Shown here: one piece after another, positions 6,365-58,092 of the stretch
How positions within the stretch are numbered: the stretch's first letter is position 1
Layout: every line of letters starts with the position of its first letter
Assembly: GCA_017504435.1 (NCBI GenBank)
Contig: JAFVRD010000010.1
Span: 1-64,000, forward strand
Length of the DNA: 64,000 nt
Reading direction: 5' to 3'
DNA from: Lentisphaeria bacterium
Lineage (GTDB): Bacteria > Verrucomicrobiota > Lentisphaeria > Victivallales > Victivallaceae
Position numbers and translations under genes: made by a program
Notes under the pieces: generated by a model
Told to the model about the DNA's origin: nothing
The model's database searches: none
The model's input: only the letters and a program-made list of their open reading frames with translations

Positions 6365-7378
6365 TTATTCCTGAATGGAGAAACGCTGATTTGCCAAATC
6401 GACAACTTTTAATTTGCCGGTGGATTCTGCGGGGATGAAACGGGCAGGTATTTGCAAATGCTGCCGTGCCGCGCCCCGGATCTCGGTCAGAATCTGAGCG
6501 ATTGCCTGACGTACGGAATGTTCCGCATCCTCAAGAATGACTCCGCACAATGGGAAGTGCAGTGCCGCTGCCAAAGTCCATTCATTGAATATCCCCACGG
6601 TGTCCGGGATATTTCCGAGTTCACTGCATTTGTCCATATACATACGCATGGAGTATTTGCCGTACAGAATAACCGCTTCCGGCCGTTCGGCTGCCAATTC
6701 AGCAGCCTGACGGCAATCACTGTGAATACGGCATTCCGGGATTACCCCGTACTTTTTGCAGCTGGCATCAAATATCTCTGCAGAAAGCGCGTTGTCATAT
6801 TTTTTGCCTTTGAAAAGTGCCAGGATAATGCGCTTATGTCCCCGGTCAGCAAGATATTTTACCGCATCCGGCAAAGCCTGTTTATAGTCCGGTGAAGCAG
6901 ATGAAACCTCGTATTCACTGCGTCCGCACAGAGAAAAATAGGGAAATCCGCGCCCGGTCAATGAATTCATCATTGCCTCCGGCAGCTGTTCCGACGTACA
7001 CGAACCGATGATGCCCTCCACACCGGAAGATAGAAAAAACTCCATCGCATCGGCAGTCCGTTCCGGTGAAAAACGGACGATTTGCAGTGACGTTTTGTAG
7101 CCGGATCTCCCGGCAGCATCCATCGCGGTTTCCACCGATGCCGCCAGAAACTGGTCTGTTAATATATCCACCATGATCCCCAGCGTGCGGCTGCTCCCGC
7201 GCCGCAGTGACAGAGCCAGTTCACTGGGACGGTAGCCGTGCTCAGCTGCGATCCGGCGCACCCGGTCGGCACGTTCTTTGGCATCACACCGTTTGTCTTT
7301 GGTTACCCCGGACAGGGCACGTTCCGCGGTTTTTGCGGAAACTCCCGCCAGGCGGGCTATCTCTTTTATCGTGATCAT
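6365..7378 (-). CDS. LacI-family transcriptional regulator
   Basis: 337 residues. The N-terminal helix-turn-helix TIKEIARLAGVSAKTAERAL is followed by a hinge region (GYRPSELALSLRRGSSRTLG) and a periplasmic-binding-protein-like ligand domain, the standard LacI/GalR layout and length. It is divergent from the U32/QueG-like/glycosidase operon, with mirrored promoters sharing an 18-bp palindrome (7411-7428). It is therefore probably the local repressor and autoregulated. The effector is likely a sugar or a derivative, but its identity is unknown. Confidence 0.92.
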   Translation of the reverse strand: MITIKEIARLAGVSAKTAERALSGVTKDKRCDAKERADRVRRIAAEHGYRPSELALSLRRGSSRTLGIMVDILTDQFLAASVETAMDAAGRSGYKTSLQIVRFSPERTADAMEFFLSSGVEGIIGSCTSEQLPEAMMNSLTGRGFPYFSLCGRSEYEVSSASPDYKQALPDAVKYLADRGHKRIILALFKGKKYDNALSAEIFDASCKKYGVIPECRIHSDCRQAAELAAERPEAVILYGKYSMRMYMDKCSELGNIPDTVGIFNEWTLAAALHFPLCGVILEDAEHSVRQAIAQILTEIRGAARQHLQIPARFIPAESTGKLKVVDLANQRFSIQE

Positions 7379-7387
7379 AATGTATTA

Positions 7388-7451
7388 AATATAGCACTTT
7401 TTCAACTTTTTTTCAAGATTACTTGAAATAATTGACTTCAGAGGTTATATT
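7388..7451. promoter_or_regulatory. Mirrored divergent promoters around an 18-bp palindromic operator
   Basis: The palindrome TTTCAAG-ATTA-CTTGAAA occupies 7411-7428. Its left arm forms the minus-strand -35 TTGAAA (7416-7411) of the LacI gene, with -10 TATATT at 7393-7388. Its right arm forms the plus-strand -35 TTGAAA (7423-7428), with -10 TATATT at 7446-7451. Both spacers are 17 bp. A repressor bound here would cover both -35 boxes at once. Confidence 0.75.
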
Positions 7452-7524
7452 AAATAACTGTATGACGGAGACAGTTATCTGCCTCACCCTCTTTGCGCAG
7501 GAACATATCACAGGGACAACGATA

Positions 7525-8565
7525 ATGAAATTTCAAGTCGGTTATCAGAATGACCGCCGTTTTCTGGAATATCTGCTGGCGCATAAAGATGCAGTAGGTG
7601 AACTCTATTTCCCCTGGGAATCCTTTACGACCGGACGCGGGGTGACTTTGAGCCGGAATGACCAGAGGACTCTGGAAAATGATCTGCACACATTTTCGGA
7701 AGCGGGAGTGAAACTCTGTCTGCTGCTTAACGGAAATTGTTACGGCAGAGAGGCTCTTTCCCGTCAGTTTTTCCAGAAACTCGGAGATACTGTTGATTTC
7801 ATTGCCGGAGAATATAATCTTGCTTCAGTGACCACCGCTTCGCCCCTGATCGGCAAATTCATTCACCGTAATTTTCCGGATTTGGAGGTGCGCGCCTCAG
7901 TGAATATGGAGATCGGCACGCCGGAAGGAGTTGAATATCTGGCGGAACACTTTGACAGTTTTTATCTGAAACGCGAATACAACTATTCCCGGGACGTGAT
8001 CATCCGGATGCGGGATTTCTGCCGCGGATGCGGTAAAAAACTTTATATTCTTGCCAACAGCGGCTGTTTGAATTTCTGTTCAGCGCGTACTTTTCACGAC
8101 AATCTGGTCGCGCATCAGCATGAGATTGCCGCGATGGATAATGGATTTAAATTTCACGGGATCTGTTCGACTTACATGGATGATCCGGTCAAACGTACTG
8201 CATTGCTTGCCAAAAGCAATTTCATCCGCCCGGAAGATACGGTTTTGTATGAAGATCTCTGCGACGGTATGAAACTTGCCACCCGTACCAATTTCAAACC
8301 TTTCGCAGTGGCAAAGGCATATTTTGACGGCAGCTGGAACGGTAATCTGCTGGAATTGACCGAACCTGCCCATGCGGAAAAATTTCTCCCCGCTGTCGTT
8401 GCCAATAAAAAATTTCCGGCTGATTATGCCGAACACCGTTTCCAGTGCGGAAAAATATGTGAAAAATGCGATTACTGTGCCGGAGTGCTGGCTGCGGCAA
8501 CTGTCACTTTGAACGAAAACAATACTATTTTTTATAAACAAATACAGGAAGAAAAATCATGTTGA
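7525..8565 (+). CDS. Peptidase U32-like (COG0826-type) protein
   Basis: 346 residues from ATG 7525; the longer frame from 7432 runs through the promoter. The sequence NSGCLNFCSARTFHDN (residues 178-193) is the cysteine motif typical of U32-family proteins, and a dense C-terminal cluster CGKICEKCDYC (residues 308-318) adds four cysteines. Cys181, Cys185, Cys214 and the C-terminal group could hold an iron-sulfur cluster, as known for UbiU/UbiV and RlhA in this superfamily. Those proteins support oxygen-independent hydroxylation rather than proteolysis. It overlaps the next gene by 7 bp, so translation is coupled. Function here is unknown; a redox role is inferred from the three Fe-S neighbours. 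Confidence 0.75.
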   Translation: MKFQVGYQNDRRFLEYLLAHKDAVGELYFPWESFTTGRGVTLSRNDQRTLENDLHTFSEAGVKLCLLLNGNCYGREALSRQFFQKLGDTVDFIAGEYNLASVTTASPLIGKFIHRNFPDLEVRASVNMEIGTPEGVEYLAEHFDSFYLKREYNYSRDVIIRMRDFCRGCGKKLYILANSGCLNFCSARTFHDNLVAHQHEIAAMDNGFKFHGICSTYMDDPVKRTALLAKSNFIRPEDTVLYEDLCDGMKLATRTNFKPFAVAKAYFDGSWNGNLLELTEPAHAEKFLPAVVANKKFPADYAEHRFQCGKICEKCDYCAGVLAAATVTLNENNTIFYKQIQEEKSC

Positions 8566-9626
8566 CCAGTCAAATGATCAAGGAAGCGGCTCTCGCCGCC
8601 GGTGCCGATATGTGCGGTATCGGAGATATGAACCGCTTTGAAGGTGCGCCTCCGGAAATGGATCCCAGGTATATTTTCCCGGAAGCGAAATCAGTTATCG
8701 GGATGGTATTCCGGATCCCCCGCGGTGTCCAGCGCGGCATTGAAGAAGGTACTCAATTTTACCAGTACCCCTCCATGGCTTACGGCGGCATCAACGAAAT
8801 CTATGCTCCGGCGGTACTTTATCAGGTCGGACAGTTGATCGAAGACCACGGCTATGAAGCATTCATCTACCGTAACACCGGTGCGCGCGGCTGTGTTTCT
8901 GATATGGACGGTACTCCCGGCAACACCCTTTCTCCGGAAGAACAGATCGAAGCGATGAATCAAGCCAAGCGCAAAACCAACCATCACCGTTCGGTGCAAT
9001 TCACCCGTCCGGCACGTCCCGGTCAGATGCCGCCGGATCTGCAGTTTCAGTTCCGGCTGGCGGCAGTGGCGTGCGGTCTCGGCGAAATGGGGTGGAGCAA
9101 AATGTTTCTGACCAAAGACTTCGGTCCGTTGCAGCGGGTGGCATTCATCTTTACCGATGCGGAATTGGAAGCTGATCCGCTTTATGACGGCGAACCGCTC
9201 TGCCGCCGGTGCATGGCATGTGTCAGAGAGTGTCCCGGCGGCTGTCTCAGTGCCACTGAAAGTATCAAAGTCAACGTCGGTGGAAAAATTTGCGAATGGG
9301 GCAAACTTGATGAATGGAAATGCTACGCCTTTTACACTCACGGCGGCAGAAAATTCAATCCTTTCGTTCCCAAAGCCGTCTGGGATGAAAATGAAAACGG
9401 CGATCTCGATCTTCTGGAAGGTAAATGCGAAGCCAACGAAAAAGAGATCATGAAAGTTTACCGTGCGCTGGAAAAATATTTCCCGACCTGGGTCGGTTAC
9501 AATATGGCAAAATGCGGCGGCTGCATCCGGGCTTGTGTAAGCATGCTGGAGAAAAAAGGCGGCTGCATGCACGGACGCTTCAAAGAACCCCTGCGTACCG
9601 GTAAACCGTGGGTCATGGACCGTTGA
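8559..9626 (+). CDS. QueG-like iron-sulfur protein, paralog 1
   Basis: 355 residues, with AGGAAG upstream. It resembles the epoxyqueuosine reductase/reductive dehalogenase-like family: CGLGEMGWSKMFLTKDFGP followed by FIFTDAELEADP, then a ferredoxin motif CRRCMACVRECP (about residues 215-225) and a second cysteine group CGGCIRAC near residue 317. Family members use cobalamin and two [4Fe-4S] clusters for reductive chemistry. Compared with the next two genes it carries an insertion near residue 110-150. Three different paralogs side by side argue against a simple role in queuosine synthesis. Cytoplasmic, no signal peptide. Confidence 0.75.
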   Translation: MLTSQMIKEAALAAGADMCGIGDMNRFEGAPPEMDPRYIFPEAKSVIGMVFRIPRGVQRGIEEGTQFYQYPSMAYGGINEIYAPAVLYQVGQLIEDHGYEAFIYRNTGARGCVSDMDGTPGNTLSPEEQIEAMNQAKRKTNHHRSVQFTRPARPGQMPPDLQFQFRLAAVACGLGEMGWSKMFLTKDFGPLQRVAFIFTDAELEADPLYDGEPLCRRCMACVRECPGGCLSATESIKVNVGGKICEWGKLDEWKCYAFYTHGGRKFNPFVPKAVWDENENGDLDLLEGKCEANEKEIMKVYRALEKYFPTWVGYNMAKCGGCIRACVSMLEKKGGCMHGRFKEPLRTGKPWVMDR

Positions 9627-9647
9627 GATCAGGAGAAGGATGTAATT

Positions 9648-10553
9648 ATGATAAACGCTCAGATAATCAAGCAAAAAGCTCTGGAATACGGTGCCGCTGC
9701 AGTCGGCATCGGTGATATTGAGTTGTTCAACGGAGTCATCGCCCAGCGTGACCCCAAAATGATATTGCCCCATGCCAAATGTATTATCGGATTTCTTTTC
9801 CGGGTGCCGCGTGCATTGTACCGGACGATGGATAACGGTAATCAATTCATGCAGTATACTTCCGTCGGAGTCAAATATATTGATGAGGACTTAAGTGAAA
9901 TATTCCTGCTCAAAATGGGTGGATTGATCGAAAATGAGGGTTATGATGCCTGTCTGCAGCGCAATGTTTCCAACTTGCGTATAAAAGGCGATCACACCAC
10001 CAATCCCGAATTGGTGGATACTTATGAACTTGCCAATGCCGAACCGGTTGCACCGGGCAAACCTGCCCCGGAAATCATCATTGATTTCAATCTGGCGGCA
10101 AAGATCTGCGGTTTGGGAGATGTCGGCAAATCCGGTCATCTGATCGCGCCGAAACTCGGACCGTTTCTCCGGATGGCATTCATTATCACGGATGCTCCGT
10201 TGGAGTGTGATGCACCTTTTGGCGCGACCCTCTGTGATAATTGCGGCAAATGTGTGGACAGCTGTCCGGGACATGCGATTTCCGATGCCGGAACTGACAC
10301 CTGGCAGTGTGCCGTTTATTACCGGGGAGCGCATAAGAGCAATCCGTTCATGAAAGATGATTTTCTGGCCGGTGATCCGGAACGTGAAGCGATCATAAAC
10401 GGAGAAAAACGTTTCACCCGGGAATCCGCCCGTGAAATCTACAAGAAAATAAACTTCCTGCCCAGCCGTTCAACCGGATATATCCCGTGTATCTGCGGCA
10501 AAGCGTGTGATATGGCGTGTTACCGTCATCTGAAAGATAAAGGTGTCTTATGA
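9648..10553 (+). CDS. QueG-like iron-sulfur protein, paralog 2
   Basis: 301 residues. The N-terminal half (GIGDIELFNG, LPHAKCIIGFLFRVPRAL) parallels paralog 1. The core CGLGDVGKSGHLIAPKLGP precedes the ferredoxin motif CDNCGKCVDSCPGHA (about residue 195). The C-terminal group CICGKACDMAC is spaced differently from paralog 1, so the second cluster may have a different ligand set. Its last four bases overlap the start of paralog 3 (ATGA), indicating translational coupling. Substrate unknown. Confidence 0.75.
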   Translation: MINAQIIKQKALEYGAAAVGIGDIELFNGVIAQRDPKMILPHAKCIIGFLFRVPRALYRTMDNGNQFMQYTSVGVKYIDEDLSEIFLLKMGGLIENEGYDACLQRNVSNLRIKGDHTTNPELVDTYELANAEPVAPGKPAPEIIIDFNLAAKICGLGDVGKSGHLIAPKLGPFLRMAFIITDAPLECDAPFGATLCDNCGKCVDSCPGHAISDAGTDTWQCAVYYRGAHKSNPFMKDDFLAGDPEREAIINGEKRFTRESAREIYKKINFLPSRSTGYIPCICGKACDMACYRHLKDKGVL

Positions 10554-11485
10554 AAGAGCTTAAAGATAAACTTATTGCCGCATTGAAAAAAAGTGCCGCG
10601 GATATCGTCTGCTGCGGCAGTATCGACCGGATGAGCGATCCTGCGGTCAAAAAACTTTTTCCGGAAGCCAGAACGGTGATCTGTGTCGCGTTCCGTCAAT
10701 TGCGTGGAACCCGCCGCGGGGTGGAGGAAGGAACTGTTTTCTATCAGTATTCCACCGGAGTGGAAACTCTGGAGGAGGTCATGATCCCGGGCGCATTGCT
10801 CCGGGGATGTGCCGTTTTGGAAGAGGCGGGATTCGAGGCTCTGCCGCAACGCCGCATCCTGTTGGTTACCAACGATGAAAATGAGACTAATTTTGAAGTC
10901 GATCATACCGAAGTATTCCGCGGTAAAAAGGAGGAAACGCTGTTGAATTTTGAACAGTGTGCAGTGGACTGCGGTCTGGGCGAAATCGGTATGTCCGGTT
11001 CCGTTTTGACGGATGATTTCGGTCCCGGTCAGCGTTGGGGATTCATCATTACTGATGCTGAACTTCCTGCCGATGAAGTCGCGGCTCCCCATCTGTGCGA
11101 CCGCTGCGGAGAATGTGTCAAAGCCTGTCCCGGTCATGCTCTTGCCGCTGACGGCAAAAGAAATTCCTGGCAGTGTGCGGCGTATTACAAAGGAGCCAAC
11201 CGCACCCGCAATCCCTTTATGCCTCCGGATGCCTTTGCTGATGATCCGGAACGGCTGGCGATCATTGCCGGAGAAGCGGATCTTTCCCCGGAACGGGCGA
11301 AAGAAGTCATTAATCAGATCAACTTTTATCCGCCTAACAAACACGCATTTGTAGCCAGCATGTGCGGACGTGCCTGCGATACCGCATGCTATGTCCATCT
11401 GGAAGAAAAAGGGGTATTGAAACGTAAATTCAAAACCATGTTCCGCAAGCGTCCGGTTTGGAAACTTTCTCTGGAAGGAAAATGA
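10550..11485 (+). CDS. QueG-like iron-sulfur protein, paralog 3
   Basis: 311 residues. It has the same architecture: FPEARTVICVAFRQLRGTRR, the core CGLGEIGMSGSVLTDDFGP, the ferredoxin motif CDRCGECVKACPGHAL (about residue 183) and the C-terminal CGRACDTAC. It is closer to paralog 2 than to paralog 1 in this C-terminal spacing. Six bases separate it from the glycosidase-like fusion downstream. The strict colinearity of the three genes suggests that the products work together, for example as successive reductases or as a hetero-oligomer; this is inference. Confidence 0.75.
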   Translation: MKELKDKLIAALKKSAADIVCCGSIDRMSDPAVKKLFPEARTVICVAFRQLRGTRRGVEEGTVFYQYSTGVETLEEVMIPGALLRGCAVLEEAGFEALPQRRILLVTNDENETNFEVDHTEVFRGKKEETLLNFEQCAVDCGLGEIGMSGSVLTDDFGPGQRWGFIITDAELPADEVAAPHLCDRCGECVKACPGHALAADGKRNSWQCAAYYKGANRTRNPFMPPDAFADDPERLAIIAGEADLSPERAKEVINQINFYPPNKHAFVASMCGRACDTACYVHLEEKGVLKRKFKTMFRKRPVWKLSLEGK

Positions 11486-11491
11486 TCGATC

Positions 11492-14400
11492 ATGAAGCGT
11501 CCCGAAATCACTTGGAGTTTGATGCATCCCACTCCGCTGGATCCGGATTACGTCCGGATGCTGGTGGGAAAAGCCCGCGATTACCGGGTGGACAGTTTTG
11601 AGATTTGCGGTCAATGCCATACCCCTTACGGCGGATTGGACGGATTGATAAATTATCGTGAATATCCGTCCGCATTTGCCAGTTGGGATCAGAACATTGT
11701 CAGTGGGAATCAGCAGAAACTCAATGAGATCATGGCAGTAAGTCATGCTGCCGGCAAAGCAGTGTACCTCTGGCACCGGGAAGTGATGATTCCGCCGGGA
11801 CTGCTTCAGGATATTCCGGAATTGCTGGATGAAAACGGTGAATTTGATTTGACCGGAGCGGCATTCGCCGATTTGATCCGTTACAAACTGGAACAAACCT
11901 TTATTGCCGTACCGGAATTGGATGGGGTGGTGCTGACTCTGACCGAAGCGGACTTTTCCGCCATCCACAATTCCAATACCGAAAAATATCCTCCGGTGGA
12001 GGTGGTACGCTTCATCATCGAAATCTTTGCATCTGAATTGGAGAAACGCGGTAAACGTTTTATTATGCGTTCTTTCGGTTCGATCGCTCAGGATTATGAG
12101 GATATTCTTGCCGGAGCGGAAAAACTGGCGGGGAAACACCATTTTGAAATCGAAACCAAAATAACCCCTTATGATTTTGACCCGTTCCTGCCCATGAACC
12201 CGTTTTTGCGGAAGAGCCCGAATTTCACTCTTTCTGCGGAGTGTGAAACTACCGGAGAATTCATGGGACAGGGCAATATGCCTTTTGAGCATGTTGACCA
12301 CATTGTCCGTTATGTCCGGGAGGGACAGGCGGCAGATGTGGATCGTTATGTGATCCGCATTGACCGGCGCGGCAACTGTATTTTTGATATTTACGAATTG
12401 AACTACTATGCCTATGACCGGGCACTGGCTGATGAAAATATCACTGCTGATGAGATCCGCCGGGAGTGGTATGATAAAAATTATCCGCCGCAATTCCGCG
12501 ATGCATTCATCAAATTGGATAAAATCGGCTGGGAAATGGTCTGCAAAACCTATTTCATTGACAAACATGTGCTGTTTCACGGCAATTACTCGATGAAATA
12601 TCTTAAAGCCGGATTTGTGTTTGCGCTCTTTGCCGAGGGCAGACGCACGTTGAAAAACGGCAGCGGCATCTGGTCGATTTTGACTGACCGTATGACTCCG
12701 GGCCGGGGAGAGATCCTGGAAGAAAAAATCCGGGCGGTAACACTGGCTGATCAAGGACTTGCATTGTTAAAAAGTCTGAATGTCCCGGCTGATGATTTCC
12801 GGCACCGGCTCTGGAAAAATGCGCCCATCATCACCCGGGCAGTGCTGGAATTGACCAAGTGCATCATCTGTTATTGTGATGATATGGAGTGGGAAAAATC
12901 TGACTTCCCTCATCTCAAAGCTCAGGTGGCAGCTTCGATGCAGGAATTTGAACGTCTCGCCGGGCATAAGGTTGAGATCATCAAACGTGATGTCATCAAT
13001 GGTTTGGAACACCGGTTGACGGAATACCGCCGCTCCATTGAAGAAATTTGTATTGAACCGCTGGCGGCGATCTGCCAGGAACTCCTGAAAGAATTTCCGG
13101 CGGAATATAACGCCAGAGAGAAATTTCTGACCGGTTGTGAAGACGGCATTATCACCGGAGGCATCTCCGATGACTGGCGTATCGTCCGTTACATGCATGC
13201 CTCTCATGCGTTTTTGCACAACGGTTTGCCGGCACGCTGGGCTGGCAATCGGGTATTCCCCAACGGTTTTATGGAAATGGAGCTCAAACGCGGTGATGAA
13301 TTGCTCATTCACGGAGCGATCGAAGATACCCGGAAATTCACCCTGGTTTGTGACGGAGAACGTATTGAAGCTGAATTTGACGACAATGGGGTGTTCTCCA
13401 TGCCGTTGCCGAAATCAGATCGCCCGGTGTCGATCCGTTTGGAAAAAAACGGAGTTTGCTATCCGCTGTTTCATGCTGTTTTGACCCGTAATCACGACTG
13501 GCATACCAAAAAAAAACTTCCGCTGTTTTCATGGCGTGAAGATATAATGCCCCGGGAATCGGTGCCTGAACCGGTTTATGATGAAAAAAGTGAGCTGCTG
13601 GAATTTTATTATACAGCATGGCAATCGGCATGGACTCACATTTTTACTTGCCGCGGCGCACCGGTTTCCCCGTATATGAATGAGGGGATACGCATCAACC
13701 GTATCTGGATATGGGATACCTGCTTTATGGTGCAATTCTGCCGTTATGCGGCAGATGTATTCCCCGGCATCCAGAGTCTGGATAATTTTTACCGGGTGAT
13801 CCATGACGGAGAAAGTATGGTGCTGAAAGTCCATATTCCTGACAATCCGCCGCTGTTTGCATGGACGGAATATGAATACTTCAAGCACACCGGTGATGTT
13901 GAACGGGTGAAAAAACTCCTGCTGGAGACCCGGTATTTGCAGAAACATTATCACTGGCTCAATTCGTTATCTGCCGGTCAACTTTTTGACTATGCCACCA
14001 GCGTGACCGGAGCAGAATTTGTGTCCGGCAAAGGTTTCAAATGGCACGGCGGAAAAGCCGGCATGGATAATACTCCGCGCGGTGATGATGATTATGCTTC
14101 GATATATTATGTCGACCTTTCCTGCCAGCAGGCATTGAGCGCATTGTACATTTCCCGGCTTGCTGAAGCGATCGGAGAAAATGCGTTGGCAGCACAGTGG
14201 CATGAGGAATATGAAAAGCAGAAACAGTTTGTCAATGACCGCTTCTGGTCCGAAAAAGATCAGCTTTATCTCGACCGTTTCATTGATGAAAGCGGTTTCT
14301 GCAAATTGCTCACTCCTGCATCATTGTGGCCGCTGCTGGCAGAAGTCGCTGAACCGCATCAGGTCAAGGCACTGGCAGATGCCGTTGCCGACCCGAACCG

Positions 14401-14962
14401 GCTCGGTGGCACCAGACCCATACCCAGTGTAAGCCGGGATGATCACCGTTTTTCTCCGGTCGGGACCTACTGGCGCGGCGGGATCTGGATGCCCAAAGTA
14501 TACATGACCGTCAAAGGTCTGGAGAAAAATGGACAGTACGCTCTTGCTGATGAAGTGGCGCGTAATATGCTGCTTTTACAATACCGGACCTGGAAAGATT
14601 TTGAACCGCATACGATCTGGGAATGCTATTCTCCGACAGAGGACAAGCCTGCCACGAATAAAATCGGCGGTTATTCGCGTCCGGATTTCTGCGGCTGGTC
14701 GGCATTGGGTCCGATTTCGCTTTTCATTGAAAACGTACTTGGCATCCGGGAAGTCAACGCATTGGAAAAACGCATCGTCTGGGAACCGTCATCCGGCAAA
14801 CGCAACGGTATAAAAAATCTCAAAATGGGCGGTAAAAATTTCACCCTGATCGCATATCCGGAACGCGGAGAAGCTGAAATTTCTGCGGCGGCAGATTTTG
14901 TACTGCAGCTCAACGGCAGAAATATTCCTCTGACAGCCGGAAATCACACGGTGAAACTGTAA
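11492..14962 (+). CDS. Two-part glycoside hydrolase-like fusion with GH63/GH37-type C-terminal barrel
   Basis: 1156 residues, no signal peptide, so probably cytoplasmic. The C-terminal half (about 640-1130) carries the landmarks of MGH1/GH63-like (alpha/alpha)6 glycosidases: WIWDTCF (about 742), GMDNTPRG (about 856, where the catalytic acid lies in the family motif), YWRGGIW (about 993), WECYSPT (about 1043, general-base region) and GWSALGP (about 1068). The N-terminal half (about 1-560) looks like a TIM barrel, possibly alpha-glucuronidase-like, with VVLTLTEADF as a candidate strand end; that call is weak. Last gene of the LacI-controlled operon. Two glycosidase-like halves in one chain may act sequentially on one oligosaccharide. 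Confidence 0.75.
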   Translation: MKRPEITWSLMHPTPLDPDYVRMLVGKARDYRVDSFEICGQCHTPYGGLDGLINYREYPSAFASWDQNIVSGNQQKLNEIMAVSHAAGKAVYLWHREVMIPPGLLQDIPELLDENGEFDLTGAAFADLIRYKLEQTFIAVPELDGVVLTLTEADFSAIHNSNTEKYPPVEVVRFIIEIFASELEKRGKRFIMRSFGSIAQDYEDILAGAEKLAGKHHFEIETKITPYDFDPFLPMNPFLRKSPNFTLSAECETTGEFMGQGNMPFEHVDHIVRYVREGQAADVDRYVIRIDRRGNCIFDIYELNYYAYDRALADENITADEIRREWYDKNYPPQFRDAFIKLDKIGWEMVCKTYFIDKHVLFHGNYSMKYLKAGFVFALFAEGRRTLKNGSGIWSILTDRMTPGRGEILEEKIRAVTLADQGLALLKSLNVPADDFRHRLWKNAPIITRAVLELTKCIICYCDDMEWEKSDFPHLKAQVAASMQEFERLAGHKVEIIKRDVINGLEHRLTEYRRSIEEICIEPLAAICQELLKEFPAEYNAREKFLTGCEDGIITGGISDDWRIVRYMHASHAFLHNGLPARWAGNRVFPNGFMEMELKRGDELLIHGAIEDTRKFTLVCDGERIEAEFDDNGVFSMPLPKSDRPVSIRLEKNGVCYPLFHAVLTRNHDWHTKKKLPLFSWREDIMPRESVPEPVYDEKSELLEFYYTAWQSAWTHIFTCRGAPVSPYMNEGIRINRIWIWDTCFMVQFCRYAADVFPGIQSLDNFYRVIHDGESMVLKVHIPDNPPLFAWTEYEYFKHTGDVERVKKLLLETRYLQKHYHWLNSLSAGQLFDYATSVTGAEFVSGKGFKWHGGKAGMDNTPRGDDDYASIYYVDLSCQQALSALYISRLAEAIGENALAAQWHEEYEKQKQFVNDRFWSEKDQLYLDRFIDESGFCKLLTPASLWPLLAEVAEPHQVKALADAVADPNRLGGTRPIPSVSRDDHRFSPVGTYWRGGIWMPKVYMTVKGLEKNGQYALADEVARNMLLLQYRTWKDFEPHTIWECYSPTEDKPATNKIGGYSRPDFCGWSALGPISLFIENVLGIREVNALEKRIVWEPSSGKRNGIKNLKMGGKNFTLIAYPERGEAEISAAADFVLQLNGRNIPLTAGNHTVKL

Positions 14963-14989
14963 CTGCCGGAACAGATGAGTTTCCGGCAG
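14963..14989 (+). terminator. Hairpin after the glycosidase-like fusion gene
   Basis: CTGCCGGAA (14963-14971) pairs with TTTCCGGCAG (14980-14989) across an 8-base loop directly after the stop codon. Only TTT follows a few bases later, so the terminator call is moderate. Confidence 0.5.
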
Positions 14990-15007
14990 TGCAGCTGTTT
15001 AAGATCG

Positions 15008-15223
15008 TCACAAGAACAGATATTTGGCGATAAACAACAGAGAAATCAGCCACAACAGCCAATTTGACCGGCGTTTTTTGCCGCAGTTGAGGATCGTATA
15101 GAATATGATCCCCAAGCCCAAACCGTCGCTGATATTGCAGGTGAATACCGTAGCGGTAATAAGGATATAAGCCAGAACCGCTCCGGTAATATCATTCCAG
15201 TCGATCCGGACAATTGCCGCAGG
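15008..15223 (-). pseudogene. C-terminal remnant of an NCS2/AzgA-type purine permease
   Basis: On the minus strand a 71-codon frame reads IDWNDITGAVLAYILIT then FTCNISDGLGLGIIFYTILN and ends at TGA (15010-15008). This matches the last membrane segments of AzgA-type xanthine/guanine/hypoxanthine permeases. The frame is closed upstream by a stop at 15226-15224, and the tandem repeat array begins right there, so the rest of the gene is gone. It is probably a decayed fragment left after the repeat expanded or a deletion joined the two. Confidence 0.6.
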
Positions 15224-15254
15224 TCATGTTAATGATATCTTCCGTAGACGTAAT

Positions 15255-15835
15255 AAAACCGTTTGATATTTCGCAGACTTGGACGGGACTTGACGGAATG
15301 AGCGCAGCGAATGAGTGCCTGAATAAAATGGATGCAACCCGTCAAAAAAGTTCCGTCCCGGAGACAAAATAAAACCGTTTGATATTTCGCAGAGTTGGAC
15401 GGGATTTGACGGAATGAGCGCAGCGAATGAGTGCCTGAATGAAATGAAGGCAACCCGTCAAAAAAGTTCCGTCCCGGAGACAAAATAAAACCGTTTGATA
15501 TTTCGCAGAGTTGGACGGGACTTGACGGAATGAGCGCAGCGAATGAGTGCCTGAATGAAATGAAGGCAACCCGTCAAAAAAAGTTCCGTCCCGGAGACAG
15601 AATAAAACCGTTTGATATTTCGCAGAGTTGGACGGGACTTGACGGAATGAGCGCAGCGAATGAGTGCCTGAATAAAATGAAGGCAACCCGTCAAAAAAGT
15701 TCCGTCCCGGAGACAGAATAAAACCGTTTGATATTTCGCAGACTTGGACGGGACTTGACGGAATGAGCGCAGCGAATGAGTGCCTGAATGAAATGAAGGC
15801 AACCCGTCAAAAAAGTTCCGTCCCGGAGACAAAAT
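15255..15835. repeat. Five tandem repeats of 116-117 bp
   Basis: Units start at 15255, 15371, 15487, 15604 and 15720, each opening with AAAACCGTTTGATATTTCGC. Four are 116 bp and one is 117 bp (an extra A in the A-run). Units differ at only a few positions. Each contains GGACGGGACTTGACGG and, about 60 bp on, CCGTCAAAAAAGTTCCGTCC, which can form an imperfect hairpin. Unit length is not a multiple of three and the overlapping frames change from unit to unit, so these are not protein repeats. The 13-mer GGACGGGACTTGA is shared exactly with the T-arm/acceptor part of the adjacent tRNA-Leu gene. Confidence 0.9.
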
Positions 15836-15852
15836 AAAAAATTTTTTTATTT

Positions 15853-15936
15853 TGGTATCCGGGACGGGACTTGAACCCGTACGCCTTGCGGCACAAGATT
15901 TTAAGTCTCGTGTGTCTGCCATTCCACCACCCGGAC
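15853..15936 (-). tRNA. tRNA-Leu (anticodon UAA)
   Basis: An 84-nt class II tRNA with CCA encoded. Acceptor arm GTCCGGG/CCCGGAT (G-U first pair) and discriminator A. The anticodon loop CTTAAAA sits in the stem CGAGA/TCTTG. It has a variable arm, and the T-arm ACGGGTTCAAGTCCCGT. It reads UUA/UUG leucine codons. The AT-rich palindrome at about 15831-15852 follows directly and may end transcription; beyond it lie the tandem repeats, in the same direction. Confidence 0.95.
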
Positions 15937-50260: not shown

Positions 50261-53200
50261 TTATTTGATACCGATAAGCAGGAAGTGGTTCCCGGGGATG
50301 TCGATATTGCCGATTTCAGAAACCTTTACCAGATCATCCCGGACACCCTGACCGCGGATTTCTTTGTTTTTCCAGATATTGGTGACGGCTTTGGGTGTCT
50401 CTACTCCGAGGGCGGCAAAATCAATTTTCATCGCGGCTTTGACCGGGGTGCGATTGAAGTTGCTTATCATCAGAACGACCCGGTAAGGTGCGCCTTTCTT
50501 ATTGATTTTGTAGTAGGAGCAATAGGTTTTGGGAGCTGTCGGCACTGCGGCGGTATTTTCCCAGTAGCCGTGGAATTCGACTTCATCGCTGCCCAATCCG
50601 ATATGTTCTCTGATGAACCACCAGTTGTTGACAGTACGGTTGTATACAAATGTGGGCCAGGTGTTGAAGTCATGGATGATCGCCGGGGCGAGGGCACGCA
50701 GCGCGAATTCCGGACTGTTTTCCACCCGGGCGCGCTCTTTTTTGAATGCCGGGGTAAAGCGGCAGAGCCGTCCGCTCTGGATGATCAGTGTATACGGCAC
50801 ACCGGCTTTGACCCAATTGAAATCGGTTTGATATTGTTCCAGCGGGATCTCTTCGCAATATCCGTAATCAAGGTTTTTCGCCATGATGTGGAATGTGTTT
50901 TCGCCCGGGGCAAAAATGTCGATGAAAGCGTGACTCATCGGCAGGAACTGGACATGGCTGTGCAGCAGAATGGAACCGTTGTTTTTGTGAACGGTTTTGT
51001 AGGTGCGCATGAGGAAATTCCGCAGACCGAGCGCATCACTGGTGATGTACGGCTGACCGAAAATATCTTTGCCGCCGCAGCCATGAGTGATATTTTCGCA
51101 GAATTTGGTGGATGCCACGTCATAATAGAGACCTTCGATGGGGTATTCTTTCATGGTTTTGTCAATATTGTAGCTCCACAGATCGGCGGTCAGGTCGGTG
51201 GCATTGAAGCAGAAATAGTCCAGGATCCACGGTTTGCCCAGTTTGATGCCGGAATGGTTCAATCGGGGACTGCTCCAGTTGTCTCTGCCGATGTAATCGT
51301 AATCTGCCACTGCATCGGAAACCTGTCCCGGCATGGTGTAGATATGATTTTTGATTTTTCTGGCTTTGTACGGAGCGAGGAACTTGAGCATTTCTTCGCG
51401 GTAAGCCGGAATACAGCTGGTCAGCGCGGTCATATCGCTGGGATTAGCGGCGTTGGCCATATATCCGAAGTTGATCGGTTGATAGTTGCAATGGCTGTTG
51501 CGCAAATAGCCGTTATAATTGACCAGACGGTGTTCTTTCATCGGCACGCGGCTGGGGGTTCCCATGAAGACCATGGTGTAAGAGGCTTTTCCCGGCATTT
51601 TGACCGGGCGGGAAATAATATTGATCCGGGCAGATGTACCGGAAGGATCTTTTTTGGCGGTCAACGGTTTTTCGTCGCGGTTATTGACCCAGTTGGCATT
51701 GGATTTGGTCCAGAAAAACACCCCTTTTTCATGACCGGAGAGCCACAGGATGTTATCTTTCCGGCGGGCATCACCGCCCAGACCGATGGCGACCTCATCT
51801 TTGAAAGGCACATAGATGGGGTCCATCGCAAATTTACCGGCAACTGCGGGAAGTTTATATGAAACGTTGAAAGATTTGACTTCAGCATTCTTTTTCAGCG
51901 GAATGAGGTCGATATTGACGATCCACGCTCCGTCGAACCAGAGTTCACCTTTCCATTCCAGAGCCAGATCTCCGGCAGTACCGCGGCCGGTATAAACGGC
52001 AAAATCCTGGTGAATGGCACTGCGCTTGGGGGCATCCCATTTGACTTCGGTGCCGTTGATGTTCCATGCCGGAGGCGCGAGGAGCAATTCCGTATCGCCG
52101 TGAGTGATGCGGGTCGGAAAAGCATTGCCGGAAAGCTGAATGGTATTGGTCAGGGTCTGATAACGGTCGTTGCCGAGATCTTTCAGCGGCAGCCACGGAT
52201 CCGGAACGCTGTGATCCATACCGAGGCGAACTTTGTACGGGGTCAGATCGGGAACACGGAACGGTATCTGCCGGGTGAAAGATGTGCCTTTGCCGGTAGT
52301 CGCGGCCTCAATGGTATAAGTGCCGGCGATCAGGTCAGCGGGCAGAGCCAACGTGATTTCATCTTTGATATTTTTCAGCGTAAATCCGGTGTTGGAGACG
52401 GTTTTGCCCGTCGGGTCGAGCAGTTTTGCTGTACCGGAAATAACACCTTTACGCAATGTTTCAGCAACGGCACTTCCGGCATTGGTAAGGTCGATTTCAA
52501 GTTTCAGTTTTTTATCGGCAGGATTGCAGCTGTGACGAAGTTCCAGCGGATAATCGACGGCGAAATTATAATAGAATTTGAACTTTTTGGATTCTACCGC
52601 CAGCCGCTGTTTTCCGGCGGGCAGGGTGCGTTCCCAGGTTACTCCGTTGAAATCTGCAGGATAGACAAACGTGGAGTAGCCGTCGGGGGTGATGCCGGCA
52701 GTAACTTTATCTCCTTTGAGATCGCCTTTGCCGGAAATTTTGAGATTTCCGGTGTTGAGTTTGAGGGGATCGGCATCCAGCTGGAAATAACTGTCATCAT
52801 TGTTGAAGTGGATGATGTCGCGGGCCTGATAAACTCTGCCGGTATAATTGCCCCAGTGATAATAGTGAATGGTACTGCGGTCATGGATGCTGATGCAGAA
52901 TTCAGCTTGGCAATCTTTACCGGTGAGCAGATCTTTACCGCCGAGATCATCCAGCGGGATGACGGCTTCCAGAGTCCAGAAATCTTTACCGATCTCCGGT
53001 TTTACGGTCGCTTTACCGTTCCATGAGACTTGGGTGTTGCAGCTGTCGTAAATAGCACCTGCGCTGTTGAAAATATATTGATTCTGCTGTTTGCCTCCGG
53101 GGGCGTGAAAATGGAACTCCACGCTGTCATCTTCCCAGAGTTTACCGTCCCGGACGGTGGCGGGGGTTTTAGTTTTGAGGGGGGCTTTGCCGACAAAATA

Positions 53201-54157
53201 TTTGACAAAGAGATTTTTATTATTGTGGGCAAGCATGATGTATGCCGGAATGTGCGGGGCAGGGGCGAGTTGGGCAGCGATCGGCATTTTCAATGCTTTG
53301 GACCAATCGGGGGTATCTCCCTGCTGGCAGGGGATCGCTGCGAAATTGAGTGCTGCCTGTACCGGGGCAGGCGGAATGACCATTTCGTACTCTTTACGGA
53401 TCTCCACAGGTCCGAGTACGCGGTTGCGGATGGTCAATTTATCAATAGCGGTTTTGTGAGTACGGTCGACCTCTTTGCGGGTTTGCCAGTCGAAACGGGT
53501 TCCGATACAGAATCTGCCGGAGGCATCCGGGTAGTTTTGTTTGGCTCTGAAAAGCCGGATCGGATTAGTTGGACGCACCCGGGTATTTTTGCCGATTTTG
53601 TCCGGAGTTTTCTGCGGTATTTTACCGTCGATATACAACGAAATCTTTTCTTCATCCCAGGTGACATCTATTTTGTGCCAGCGTCCGGGAGCCCAGTCTG
53701 CGGCATCACATCTGGCGACTGCGGTCAGAGCATGCTGTTTGTCACCGGCGGGACGGTTGACGATGGTCGCTTCGATATAACCGGGAGTCAATTTATTTAT
53801 CCGCAACTGGAAATCTTTCTGCCAGGCAAAAAAGAAAGTCTGCCAGCCTTCTCCGTAGAGCTGCCAGTTGATCGGGCAGACCCAGATGGATACCGTGCCG
53901 CCTTTGGGGTTGAAATTTTTGGGCATGAGGTATTCCACACATTCGCTGTTGGCGAGGTTGAGGCTGTTACCTTTGCCGTTGACTCCGGGGAACATGCGCA
54001 GCTGCAGATCGCCGTCTTTGAAACGGTAAACCCGTTTGTCACCGGCGATCCCGGGGGCGACTCCGTAATCGTCAAAGTCGACTTCAAATGTTTTTCCGGC
54101 AAAACTCATTGTCGGGAGCATCGCTGCACCCAGCAATGCCAAAATGATTTTTTTCAT
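50261..54157 (-). CDS. Large exported glycan-active protein, tandem paralog B
   Basis: 1298 residues with a signal peptide (MKKIILALLGAAMLPTMSFA). Domains, roughly: a concanavalin-A/LamG-like lectin domain (22-215, with WHKIDVTWDEEKISLYIDGK), a CBM9-like binding domain (about 290-460, LWEDDSVEFHF), a middle beta-sandwich, and a C-terminal part (about 660-1298) that recalls GH123/DUF6067-type glycosidase regions, with HSHVQFLPMSHAFIDIFAPG and YCEEIPLEQYQTDFNW highly conserved in the paralog. Catalytic residues are not identified. Last gene of the operon; the next gene upstream is its paralog, with near-identical DNA over 53892-54088. Confidence 0.75.
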   Translation of the reverse strand: MKKIILALLGAAMLPTMSFAGKTFEVDFDDYGVAPGIAGDKRVYRFKDGDLQLRMFPGVNGKGNSLNLANSECVEYLMPKNFNPKGGTVSIWVCPINWQLYGEGWQTFFFAWQKDFQLRINKLTPGYIEATIVNRPAGDKQHALTAVARCDAADWAPGRWHKIDVTWDEEKISLYIDGKIPQKTPDKIGKNTRVRPTNPIRLFRAKQNYPDASGRFCIGTRFDWQTRKEVDRTHKTAIDKLTIRNRVLGPVEIRKEYEMVIPPAPVQAALNFAAIPCQQGDTPDWSKALKMPIAAQLAPAPHIPAYIMLAHNNKNLFVKYFVGKAPLKTKTPATVRDGKLWEDDSVEFHFHAPGGKQQNQYIFNSAGAIYDSCNTQVSWNGKATVKPEIGKDFWTLEAVIPLDDLGGKDLLTGKDCQAEFCISIHDRSTIHYYHWGNYTGRVYQARDIIHFNNDDSYFQLDADPLKLNTGNLKISGKGDLKGDKVTAGITPDGYSTFVYPADFNGVTWERTLPAGKQRLAVESKKFKFYYNFAVDYPLELRHSCNPADKKLKLEIDLTNAGSAVAETLRKGVISGTAKLLDPTGKTVSNTGFTLKNIKDEITLALPADLIAGTYTIEAATTGKGTSFTRQIPFRVPDLTPYKVRLGMDHSVPDPWLPLKDLGNDRYQTLTNTIQLSGNAFPTRITHGDTELLLAPPAWNINGTEVKWDAPKRSAIHQDFAVYTGRGTAGDLALEWKGELWFDGAWIVNIDLIPLKKNAEVKSFNVSYKLPAVAGKFAMDPIYVPFKDEVAIGLGGDARRKDNILWLSGHEKGVFFWTKSNANWVNNRDEKPLTAKKDPSGTSARINIISRPVKMPGKASYTMVFMGTPSRVPMKEHRLVNYNGYLRNSHCNYQPINFGYMANAANPSDMTALTSCIPAYREEMLKFLAPYKARKIKNHIYTMPGQVSDAVADYDYIGRDNWSSPRLNHSGIKLGKPWILDYFCFNATDLTADLWSYNIDKTMKEYPIEGLYYDVASTKFCENITHGCGGKDIFGQPYITSDALGLRNFLMRTYKTVHKNNGSILLHSHVQFLPMSHAFIDIFAPGENTFHIMAKNLDYGYCEEIPLEQYQTDFNWVKAGVPYTLIIQSGRLCRFTPAFKKERARVENSPEFALRALAPAIIHDFNTWPTFVYNRTVNNWWFIREHIGLGSDEVEFHGYWENTAAVPTAPKTYCSYYKINKKGAPYRVVLMISNFNRTPVKAAMKIDFAALGVETPKAVTNIWKNKEIRGQGVRDDLVKVSEIGNIDIPGNHFLLIGIK

Positions 54158-54192
54158 GTGGTCTTTCCCTTATATTTTTTCAAATGGATTGT

Positions 54193-57100
54193 TTATTTGA
54201 TGCCGATGATCGCGAAGTGATTGCCGGGGATGGTGATATCATTGATCGCTTCCAGCGGAATTTCGTGATCGGTCCAGTTGCGCACACCTTTTTTGGTTTT
54301 GTTGCGCCAGATTTCAGTGACGGTAACCGGTTTTTCGATGCCCAGAGCGTTGAAATCTATTTTGCATGCGGCTTTGACCGGGGTACGGTTGAAGTTGCCG
54401 AACAGCAGCAGCCGGCGGTACGGAGCTCCGGGAGTATTGATGACATAATACGAGCAATAGGTTTTATCGTCCAGCGGTTTGACGGCCTTGTTTTCCCAGT
54501 AGCCTGTAAAGTCTGCGTCACCGCCTAATCCGAGTTTTTTCCGCAATCCCCACCAGTGATTGACTGTGGGATTGTATACAAATGTGGCCCAGGTGTTGAA
54601 GTCATGGAGGATCGGCGGAGTCAGTGCCCGCAGGGCGTATTCCGGATAATTCTCGACCTTGTTTCTAAGTTTTTTGAATGCCGGGACATTGCGGCATATT
54701 CTGCCGTACTGGATGATGTGGCAATAGGGGACACCGGCTTTTTTCCAGTTGAAATCGACCTGATATTGTTCCGGCGGGATCTCTTCACAATATCCGTGTT
54801 CAAAGTTTTTGATCAGAACGTGGAACGTATTTTCACCCGGTGCAAACATATCAATAAATCCGTGACTCATGGGGAGGAACTGGACATGACTGTGCAGCAT
54901 AATAGAACCGTTATATTTATGAACGGTTTTATATACCCGCATCAGGAATGTCCGCAACCCCAACGCATCACTGGAAATATAATCCTGACCGAAAACATCT
55001 TTGCCGCCGCAGCCGTGGATCCGGTTTTCGCAGAATTTGGTGGCTGCCACATCAAAGTAGGGGCCATCGATGATTTTCGGAAAATCCCGCAGGGTCTTAT
55101 CGAGGTTGTAACACCACCAGTCTGAAGTGCGGTCAGTGGCATTGAAACAGAAATAATCCAGTATCCACCGCTGTCCCAGTTTGGTACCGGAATGGTTGAG
55201 ACGCGGAGTACTCCAGTTATTTTTACCGATATAATCGTATGCCGGTTCCAAATTGGAAATCTGTCCGGGCATGGAGTAAATATGAGTTTTTATGTTGCGT
55301 GCCAATTTCGATTTGATTCCCTCTCCGTTACGGAGTTTTTCCGGATATGCCGGAACACAGCTGGTCAAAGTGGTCATATCTGTTGGGCTGGCAGTGTTGT
55401 AGAATCCAGACCAGTTGATGGAATGGTAGGTTAAATTTGAATTACGGGTCGAGCCGTAATTTGCCAGCCGGAATTCTTTCATCGGAGTACGGCTTGGAGT
55501 GCCCATGAACACCATAGTGTATTCCGCCGGGCGGGGCAGGGTGACCGGACGGGAGATCACGTTGAGCTGAACAGAAGTGCCGGAGGCGTCTTTGCGGGCG
55601 GTCAACGGCTTTTCGTCGCGGTTATTGACCCAGTTGGCATTGGATTTGACCCAGAAAAACACCCCTTTTTCATGGCCGGATATCCAGAGGATATTATCTT
55701 TCCGGCGGGCATCGCCGCCCAGTGCTACGGCGACTTTGCCGTCTTTGAAAGGCACATAAATCGGGTCCATGGCAAATTTTCCGGCTTCCGGAGCTACCTG
55801 ATAGCTGATATTGAAGCTGTCAAGTCGGGCATTTTTATCAACGGGGATAAGTTTGAAATTGACGATCCACGCTCCATCGAACCACAATTCGCCCCGCCAA
55901 TCGATTTTTACATTGCCGGCATCTCCGGTTCCGGTATAGACCGCATAATCATCAAAAATTTCTTCGCGTTTGAATTTTTCCCATTTAACAGCTTTGCCGT
56001 TGAGCATCCAGATTGGGGATTTCGTAAGCAGTTCGACACCTTTATTGGTCAACTGTGCCGGGAATGCGCCGGGACCGAGCTGAATGGTTCCGGTCAAAGT
56101 CTGATAACGGTCATTGCCCAGGGATTTGAGCGGCTGCCACGGATCGGGAACGGTATGATCTTTGCCGAGCCGGAGTTTGAATGGGGTCATATCCGGAACG
56201 CGGAACGGAACATTACGGGTGAACGAGGTATGATCGCCGGAGGTTGAAACTGCGACCTGATATGTTCCGGCAGCCGGGTCTTTCGGCAGGGAAATCGCCG
56301 CAGTACCTTTGACCGCACTCATGGTGAAAGTGGATTCGCAAACAATTTTACCGGAAGGATCCAGCAATTTTACCTTGCCGGGGATCGTTTTGCTGCGCAG
56401 AATATTATGAGTTGTTTCTCCGGCATTGACCAGATCGAGGTCAAGCGAGAGTACACTGGTATCAGGATCGCAGTTGACGGAAACTTCCAGCGGATAATCC
56501 ACTTCAAAATCGTAATAATAGCGGAAACGGTCGGATTTCACAGTCAGATTATGTTTACCGGCGGCAAGACGGCGTTTCCAGGTCACATCACGGAAATCTC
56601 CGGGATAAAATTCTTCGGGATACCCCTCCTGAGTGATTTTTGCGGAGATGTTTTCAGTTTTGAGATTACCTTTTCCGGAAATATCCATATTGCCGGTTTT
56701 AAGCTGTATCGGATCGATATCCAATTGATAATAGCTGTCATCGGTGGCAAGTTTGATGATATCCCGGGCTTTGTATGTGGTGCCGGTGGCAGTTCCCCAA
56801 TGGTAGTAATTCTGCTGCCGTCCTTTTTGTATACTTACACAAAAGGCAGCCATAAGTTCTTTGCCGATAAGTTCTTTGCCGCCGAGATCATCCAGCGGTA
56901 TCGCCATTTCGACGGTCCAGAAATCTTTTTTCTGTCCGGCGGTGATTTTGGCATTGCCGTTCCATTTGGAGTTGAGATTGCGGCTGTCAAAATAAACACC
57001 GCGGCTGTTGACGATATACTGATTTTGCTGTTTGCCGTCACCGGAGGCAAAGTGAAATTCAATGCTGTCATCTTCCCAGAGGTTACCGTCCCGGACGGTT

Positions 57101-58092
57101 ATATCAGTTTTTTGAGCTGTGTTGTAGATCAGATATTTCAGAAAGAGAGTTTCGCCGTTGTGAGCTGCCAGCACGTCTGCCCGGAGCAGTTCCACCGGTC
57201 TGAGCTGAGTGGCAATGGGAAGTTTCAACGCCTTGCTCCAATCGGGGGCAGAGCCTTTCTGCATCGGGATTTCGGCGTAATTGAGAATTCTTTTTCTTAC
57301 CGGCGGCGGAATGATTTTTTCATATTCCTGCTGGATCTCTTTGGCACTCAGTATCCGGTCATGAATGGTCAGACTGTCGATGGCGGTTTTATGTTCGCGG
57401 TTGACCTGCTTGCGTTTCTGCCAGTCGTGGCGGGTGCCGATGCAGAATCGTCCGGCTGCCTGCGGCAGATCCGGTTTGATTTTGAATGTTCCTGCCGGAC
57501 GGGTCGGTCCGACTCTGCCGGATTTACCGACGGATATCGGCGTTTTCGGAGGAACTTTGCCGTCGATATAAAGGCGGATATTTTCATTATCCCAGGTGAC
57601 ATCTATTTTGTGCCAGCGTCCGGCACTCCATTCTTTGGCATCACATCTGGCCTGTACGGTGATCGCCTGCATTGCGGAACCTGCCGGACGGTGAACGATC
57701 GTTGCTTTGATATAATGGGCGGCCAGTTTGTGGATGCGCAATTCAAAATCTTTCTGCCATGCAAAAAAGAACACCTGCCATTCCGGATCGGAGAGTTTCC
57801 AGTTTACCGGGCTGACCCACAGAGAAACCGTGCCGCCTTTGGGGTTGAAATTTTTGGGCATGAGGTATTCCACACATTCGCTGTTGGCGAGATTGAGGCT
57901 GTTACCTTTGCCGTTGACTCCGGGGAACATGCGCAGCTGCAGGTCGCCGTCTTTGAAACGGTAAACCCGTTTGTCACCGGCGATCCCGGGGGCGACTCCG
58001 TAATCGTCAAAATCGACTTCAAAGAGTTTTTCTGCGAAAACAGCCGCCGGAAGCAAAGCCGCAGTCAGCAGTGCAAGCACAGTTTTTTTCAT
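54193..58092 (-). CDS. Large exported glycan-active protein, tandem paralog A
   Basis: 1299 residues with a signal peptide (TVLALLTAALLPAAVFA). The same domain order as its downstream paralog: LamG-like (WHKIDVTWDNENIRLYIDGK), CBM9-like (LWEDDSIEFHFASGDGKQ), beta-sandwich and a long C-terminal catalytic-like region with LGGDARRKDNILWISGHEKG and HSHVQFLPMSHGFIDMFAPG. Co-transcription with a sialate O-acetylesterase suggests action on acetylated host glycans. Two diverged copies kept in tandem may differ in linkage preference. No family assignment is certain beyond GH123/DUF6067 resemblance. Confidence 0.75.
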   Translation of the reverse strand: MKKTVLALLTAALLPAAVFAEKLFEVDFDDYGVAPGIAGDKRVYRFKDGDLQLRMFPGVNGKGNSLNLANSECVEYLMPKNFNPKGGTVSLWVSPVNWKLSDPEWQVFFFAWQKDFELRIHKLAAHYIKATIVHRPAGSAMQAITVQARCDAKEWSAGRWHKIDVTWDNENIRLYIDGKVPPKTPISVGKSGRVGPTRPAGTFKIKPDLPQAAGRFCIGTRHDWQKRKQVNREHKTAIDSLTIHDRILSAKEIQQEYEKIIPPPVRKRILNYAEIPMQKGSAPDWSKALKLPIATQLRPVELLRADVLAAHNGETLFLKYLIYNTAQKTDITVRDGNLWEDDSIEFHFASGDGKQQNQYIVNSRGVYFDSRNLNSKWNGNAKITAGQKKDFWTVEMAIPLDDLGGKELIGKELMAAFCVSIQKGRQQNYYHWGTATGTTYKARDIIKLATDDSYYQLDIDPIQLKTGNMDISGKGNLKTENISAKITQEGYPEEFYPGDFRDVTWKRRLAAGKHNLTVKSDRFRYYYDFEVDYPLEVSVNCDPDTSVLSLDLDLVNAGETTHNILRSKTIPGKVKLLDPSGKIVCESTFTMSAVKGTAAISLPKDPAAGTYQVAVSTSGDHTSFTRNVPFRVPDMTPFKLRLGKDHTVPDPWQPLKSLGNDRYQTLTGTIQLGPGAFPAQLTNKGVELLTKSPIWMLNGKAVKWEKFKREEIFDDYAVYTGTGDAGNVKIDWRGELWFDGAWIVNFKLIPVDKNARLDSFNISYQVAPEAGKFAMDPIYVPFKDGKVAVALGGDARRKDNILWISGHEKGVFFWVKSNANWVNNRDEKPLTARKDASGTSVQLNVISRPVTLPRPAEYTMVFMGTPSRTPMKEFRLANYGSTRNSNLTYHSINWSGFYNTASPTDMTTLTSCVPAYPEKLRNGEGIKSKLARNIKTHIYSMPGQISNLEPAYDYIGKNNWSTPRLNHSGTKLGQRWILDYFCFNATDRTSDWWCYNLDKTLRDFPKIIDGPYFDVAATKFCENRIHGCGGKDVFGQDYISSDALGLRTFLMRVYKTVHKYNGSIMLHSHVQFLPMSHGFIDMFAPGENTFHVLIKNFEHGYCEEIPPEQYQVDFNWKKAGVPYCHIIQYGRICRNVPAFKKLRNKVENYPEYALRALTPPILHDFNTWATFVYNPTVNHWWGLRKKLGLGGDADFTGYWENKAVKPLDDKTYCSYYVINTPGAPYRRLLLFGNFNRTPVKAACKIDFNALGIEKPVTVTEIWRNKTKKGVRNWTDHEIPLEAINDITIPGNHFAIIGIK

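Follow-up and report, generated by a model that had tools for sequence, protein, structure and literature searches.

The protein encoded at 11492–14962 of the window (the whole stretch of 64,000 nucleotides analyzed here, from a gut-type Lentisphaeria bacterium) joins two glycosidase-like units in one reading frame, an N half with the predicted fold and the putative catalytic residues of alpha-uronidases, and a C half of the GH63 type. From sequence comparison and structure modeling, we consider it reasonably probable (about 0.6) that the product is a cytoplasmic exo-glycosidase with two sites, an alpha-uronidase and an alpha-glucosidase or alpha-mannosidase. In the proposed mechanism, the N half (residues 1–667) would be an inverting enzyme that releases a uronic acid (glucuronate or galacturonate) from an alpha linkage, using E152 as the acid and D228 and E256 on the base side, and the C half (residues 691–1156) would remove an alpha-linked glucose or mannose, also with inversion, using D859 as the acid and E1044 as the base. 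The two sites would probably act in succession on the same imported acidic oligosaccharide, and the covalent linkage would keep both activities together. The parts are of known fold classes, and the C half is of a known family; the N half lies outside Pfam and NCBIfam as searched, and no description of its coupling, i.e. of GH67 and GH63 paired as a fusion, was found in the open-access literature searched. An earlier suggestion, made from the sequence only, that this layout is unusual and possibly represents a new architecture is thus a fair one.

Domain organization of the fusion protein

The reading frame opens with ATG, lies on the forward strand and encodes 1156 aa. It represents a genuine protein, neither a chance frame nor the product of one chimeric assembly, since the family of its N half (hereafter the N family) was found in 38 of the 197 genomes searched in the class, nine of them with the C half in the same frame, and the aligned fused proteins are 70–77% identical to that of the window. 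The predicted domains and putative catalytic positions are as follows.

11492..12481, forward strand: residues 1–330, TIM-barrel domain, GH67/GH138-like, putative alpha-uronidase (AF2, Foldseek, VIA-align, hhalign to GH67)
12482..13129, forward strand: residues 331–546, helical domain after the barrel (AF2 secondary structure)
13130..13492, forward strand: residues 547–667, beta-sandwich closing the N unit, where stand-alone relatives end (AF2, ends of homologues)
13493..13561, forward strand: residues 668–690, linker of lower confidence, 65 in block 671–680 (full-length AF2; linker remnant in locus L038)
13562..14737, forward strand: residues 691–1082, GH63/MGH1-like (alpha/alpha)6 barrel (Pfam PF22422/PF03200; hmmsearch of PDB, YgjK E 3e-25; AF2)
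14738..14962, forward strand: residues 1083–1156, C-terminal strands and stop (AF2)
11945..11947, forward strand: E152, putative general acid of the N active site (34/34 rows; pairs with E291 of the GH67 set)
12173..12175, forward strand: D228, putative base-side carboxylate of the N active site (34/34 rows; pairs with D365 of the GH67 set)
12257..12259, forward strand: E256, putative base-side carboxylate of the N active site (34/34 rows; pairs with E393 of the GH67 set)
14066..14068, forward strand: D859 in a GMDN motif, putative general acid of the C active site (23/23 rows; aligned with GLDDYPR of the Chaetomium glucosidase)
14621..14623, forward strand: E1044 in WECYSP, putative general base of the C active site (23/23 rows; aligned at ENYNP of YgjK)

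The full-length AF2 model reached a pLDDT of 89.5 and a pTM of 0.67, and the latter value leaves the relative placement of the two halves unsure. No signal peptide was seen by eye at the N terminus (MKRPEITWSLM), and it is from this absent leader that we infer a cytoplasmic location.

Fold of the N half and its nearest structures

Searches by sequence placed the N half in no established family: residues 1–593 gave no Pfam match at E <= 10, the Glyco_hydro_67M profile included; NCBIfam matches of the whole protein were confined to the C half; a PDB sequence search with the N-family profile returned no glycosidase, only spurious matches; and PF07488 had no match in the own genome at E <= 1e-5. 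The AF2 model of residues 1–667, built on a 34-row alignment, reached a pLDDT of 92.3 and a pTM of 0.92; strands and helices alternate in it, as in a TIM barrel, as far as residue ~330, after which come helices up to residue ~546 and then strands. When this model was compared with the PDB by Foldseek, the best match was the GH138 alpha-galacturonidase BP0997 (6hzf; E 4e-16, TM 0.54 by query length), followed by GH115 (E 5e-12) and GH67 alpha-glucuronidases, and the top 14 rows all belonged to these three families. VIA-align put GH67 first (1l8n; Z 22.5, 427 residues aligned over model residues 2–484, rmsd 4.6 A); chains of GH20 and GH84, at Z 18–20, came within 2–4 Z units of GH67. These model comparisons support placing the barrel with the alpha-uronidase folds of GH67, GH138 and GH115.

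The sequence-only reading had predicted a glycosidase-type barrel here that it could not assign, which the modeled barrel and helical domain, with alpha-uronidase folds nearest and three invariant carboxylates that align with those of GH67, bear out. Its boundary near residue 560 did not stand, as most stand-alone relatives end near the position equivalent to residue 667, which makes 1–667 the natural unit. Nor did the N half turn out to be merely a non-catalytic, beta-rich accessory domain, the beta-sandwich occupying only residues ~551–667.

The likeness to each of the three families has its own extent. GH67 enzymes (1l8n, 1gqi, 1mqq) share with the N half a barrel followed by a helical domain, and their catalytic carboxylates align with residues that are invariant in the N family. 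Unlike GH67, the N half is without the GH67 N-terminal domain (its barrel begins at about residue 5 of the reading frame, and the aligned GH67 chain residues begin at about 140), carries an extra C-terminal beta-sandwich, and is seen in no xylan context; in structure alignments its identity to GH67 and GH138 is only ~11%. GH138 BP0997, which targets the pectin rhamnogalacturonan II, covers most of the N half with just 10–12% identity, a likeness of fold, and we know of no GH138 enzyme fused to GH63. GH115 (7pug, 5by3, 4c90) is related in fold, but the N half keeps the active-site residues of GH67, from which those of GH115 differ according to PMC3879575.

Putative catalytic residues in the N-terminal unit

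As a reference set, 11 canonical GH67 sequences of the phylum were aligned and compared with the N family by hhalign. The 34-row N-family profile aligned to this set with Prob 95.2 and E 2.8e-8; among its rows are four distantly related bridging proteins, of which two match the GH67 middle domain below threshold. A 14-row profile without these four gave Prob 41.7 and E 2.7e-4, its register near D228 and E256 being unchanged, and the N profile against a GH63-like profile, as a control, gave Prob 3.7%. In the 34-row register, E152, D228 and E256 stand opposite E291, D365 and E393, and R193 and K223 opposite R324 and K360 of the GH67 set. The three carboxylates are present in every one of the 34 aligned relatives, in fused and stand-alone proteins alike, and R193 and K223 in 33 of the 34, the exception being a distant bridging protein (L086). 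We take the aligned GH67 positions to be the acid, the base-side carboxylates and the carboxylate-binding residues, an assignment helped by mutants named in PDB titles (E292A, E285N, E386Q).

The closeness of GH20 and GH84 in the structural list (Z 18–20 vs 22.5) raises another reading, namely that the N half belongs to the same barrel superfamily and acts on a non-uronic sugar, e.g. an N-acetylhexosamine, so that a different activity would be paired with the GH63-like half. We regard this as unlikely, though deserving of serious weight, because the first 14 Foldseek rows hold uronidase families only, because the GH67 carboxylates and the positions of R193 and K223 align with GH67, and because relatives of the N half lie near genes for uronic-acid polysaccharides (see below).

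The GH63-like C half

The C half was readily recognized from its sequence, scoring 110 bits against PF22422 (MGH1-like_GH; cut-off 27) over residues 785–1055, 54.8 bits against PF03200 (Glyco_hydro_63; cut-off 22.4) and 59 bits, over the cut-off, against PF01204 (Trehalase); the NCBIfam model for glucosylglycerate hydrolase gave 21.8 bits, far below its cut-off of 550. When a 23-row C profile was run against the PDB by hmmsearch, it matched GH63 YgjK (E 3e-25) and processing glucosidase I (E 3e-24), as well as trehalases and Thermus and mycobacterial hydrolases. With GH63 (YgjK, processing glucosidase I, mannosylglycerate and glucosylglycerate hydrolases) the C half shares the (alpha/alpha)6 barrel, the acid and base, and the WxWD and YWRGxxW motifs, and it forms a separate GH63 subgroup. 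D859, E1044, W741, W994 and W999 are conserved in all 23 rows, and D742 and Y993 in 21, the exceptions being two Opitutaceae-type rows. The GH63-type assignment made earlier was therefore upheld by the Pfam and PDB matches, by the conserved acid and base and by Foldseek of the full-length model, and both halves look catalytic from their sequences and models.

The top Foldseek row for the full-length model was BT_1020 (5mqr), a multidomain Bacteroides pectin enzyme, which likewise couples an (alpha/alpha)6 barrel to another module. It prompted us to consider a GH142-like C half, a candidate that was rejected since the sequence is closer to GH63 than to BT_1020 (E 3e-25 vs 1e-4). WxWD and YWRGxxW are spaced in keeping with the -1 site of MhGgH, for which PMC6608630 gives Trp40, Trp42, Asp43, Tyr375, Trp376 and Trp381 as sugar-site residues, Asp182 as the acid and Glu419 as the base; the correspondence was drawn from the motifs rather than from an alignment with MhGgH. 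One GH63-like relative of the C half (L099:1441-3918) bears a C-terminal extension of InlB-type repeat domains.

Distribution and evolution of the fusion

Outside the class-level search, the N family was found in 29 of 387 genomes searched in the phylum (14-row profile) and in 26 loci of a public genome collection, including one Opitutaceae and one Bacteroidales contig; the own genome also holds a stand-alone N paralogue (G000:C29:17547-19589). Among 40 distinct N domains, nine have a GH63-like half after them and one has another domain there; a further one has a GH63-like domain in front, and the remaining 29 have no such partner on either side. Each half is also found alone. Fused and unfused rows are intermixed in one well-supported group of 19 in the N-domain tree, and all nine fused C halves fall into a single clade (97/97), next to the stand-alone C-type proteins L139 and L140, which are 63–64% identical to the query. 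Because the fused C halves form one clade, a single gain followed by losses is likely, and it is the simplest reading of the sequence trees. In one relative (L038) the C half was lost by a clean deletion, its DNA matching that of L035 through the linker and resuming just past the C half of L035. The fusion is also absent from several close relatives, so the linkage is dispensable.

The N-type domain is coupled to other units in more than one way. At L044:3991-7272 it is joined to a BNR_2 sialidase-like propeller in place of the GH63-like half; in L141 the order is reversed (GH63-N) within one 1277-aa frame that has no internal stop and possible internal starts between the domains; and in L056 (Opitutaceae) a GH63-like unit and then an N-type unit lie as adjacent genes. 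The fusion can be read as a natural record of a pairing that probably arose a single time and was then lost on more than one occasion, with another module taken on in one case.

These variants bear on whether the halves work together at all. That they act on different substrates, and are joined for co-regulation only, would agree with the sialidase-like partner in L044 and with loss of the C half in a close relative; we consider it distinctly improbable, since distant Opitutaceae-type genomes have the same pairing, in reversed order and as neighboring genes, and this points to a shared pathway. It is very improbable indeed that catalysis in the fusion is confined to the C half and that the N half now serves as a substrate-binding or structural module, for although catalytically dead barrels serving in binding exist and the N family has no proven member, the putative catalytic residues are invariant in fused and stand-alone proteins, and it is the N half that persists after loss of the C half in L038.

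Returning to a two-site exo-glycosidase, we put forward tentatively, and at less than even odds, that the N half founds a new GH family of alpha-uronidases with the catalytic residues of GH67 and without the GH67 sequence or N-terminal domain, which bacteria of this group have repeatedly coupled to a second exo-glycosidase (GH63-like after or before it, sialidase-like after it) to give one-chain enzymes for acidic oligosaccharides in which an alpha-hexose is carried by, or adjoins, an alpha-uronic acid. To our knowledge, no close-family member of either half has a characterized activity. The alpha-uronidase reading gives a domain outside Pfam, present in 38 of the 197 genomes searched in the class, a concrete, testable activity, and it links sequence-divergent alpha-uronidase families through common catalytic residues; if confirmed, it would add a further family of alpha-uronidases with which acidic glycans of plants or hosts could be dissected.

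Genomic surroundings and candidate substrates

The fusion gene follows a series of tightly spaced genes on the forward strand, which lie opposite a divergent regulator gene.

6365..7378, reverse strand: divergent LacI-family regulator gene (Pfam PF00356/PF13377)
7432..8565, forward strand: U32-peptidase-like gene, first of the tightly spaced upstream genes (PF01136 E 0.04, below cut-off; PDB 5d88 E 0.017)
8559-9626, 9648-10553 and 10550-11485, forward strand: three QueG/RdhA-like iron-sulfur protein genes (NCBIfam TIGR02486/TIGR00276 below cut-off; second gene, PDB QueG and PceA)

Of the 26 public loci, 10 have U32-like and QueG-like genes upstream of the N family, one of these 10 being truncated at the end of its contig. 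In 33 others of the 197 genomes the first QueG-like protein is 79–94% identical, more conserved than the adjoining fusion, and it was found in 91 of the 197 at E <= 1e-30, several of these copies being on contigs other than that of the fusion. Its occurrence away from the fusion weakens the idea that the iron-sulfur and U32-like genes are obligatory to the fusion, as does another genome (G175), where no such gene stands out by eye beside the fusion in the list of reading frames for its locus (L158).

In relatives, the surroundings of the N family fit the breakdown of uronic-acid polysaccharides. A pectic lyase-like gene lies near it in three loci (by Pfam in one and by homology in two), the Bacteroidales locus (L059) holds GH88, heparinase II/III-like and acetyl esterase genes, and loci outside the group of the window also have sulfatase-like (by eye) and DUF4838 genes nearby. 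Uronate isomerase (UxaC) is present in the own genome, and the UxuA and altronate dehydratase families were not found there, a combination that does not decide between glucuronate and galacturonate. In one relative only (L038:2715-3896), the LacI gene of the operon has a galactonate dehydratase-like gene upstream, which scores above its cut-off in NCBIfam.

As to the substrate, a bold candidate is the head group of plant sphingolipids, which consists of Man/GlcN-GlcA-inositol, and pectin-derived fragments are a more ordinary one. The head-group idea drew no support from a recurring phosphoesterase: genes of this type lie beside L034 and the stand-alone sister L139, but no phosphoesterase cluster reached three loci.

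PADLOC gave no match. Across 7300-15400, promoter-like sites numbered 12 vs 10.5 in shuffled sequences, i.e. no excess, and terminator-like sites 18 vs 9.2, but the latter were scattered through coding sequence. Downstream of the fusion, a tandem array of a 116-base unit (15252-15839; ~5 copies, 97% match) adjoins a tRNA-Leu gene (15853-15936). Further along the window, at 50264-58092, two neighboring reading frames of 1298 and 1299 residues have near-identical N termini with a leader-like start, apparently the result of a recent duplication.
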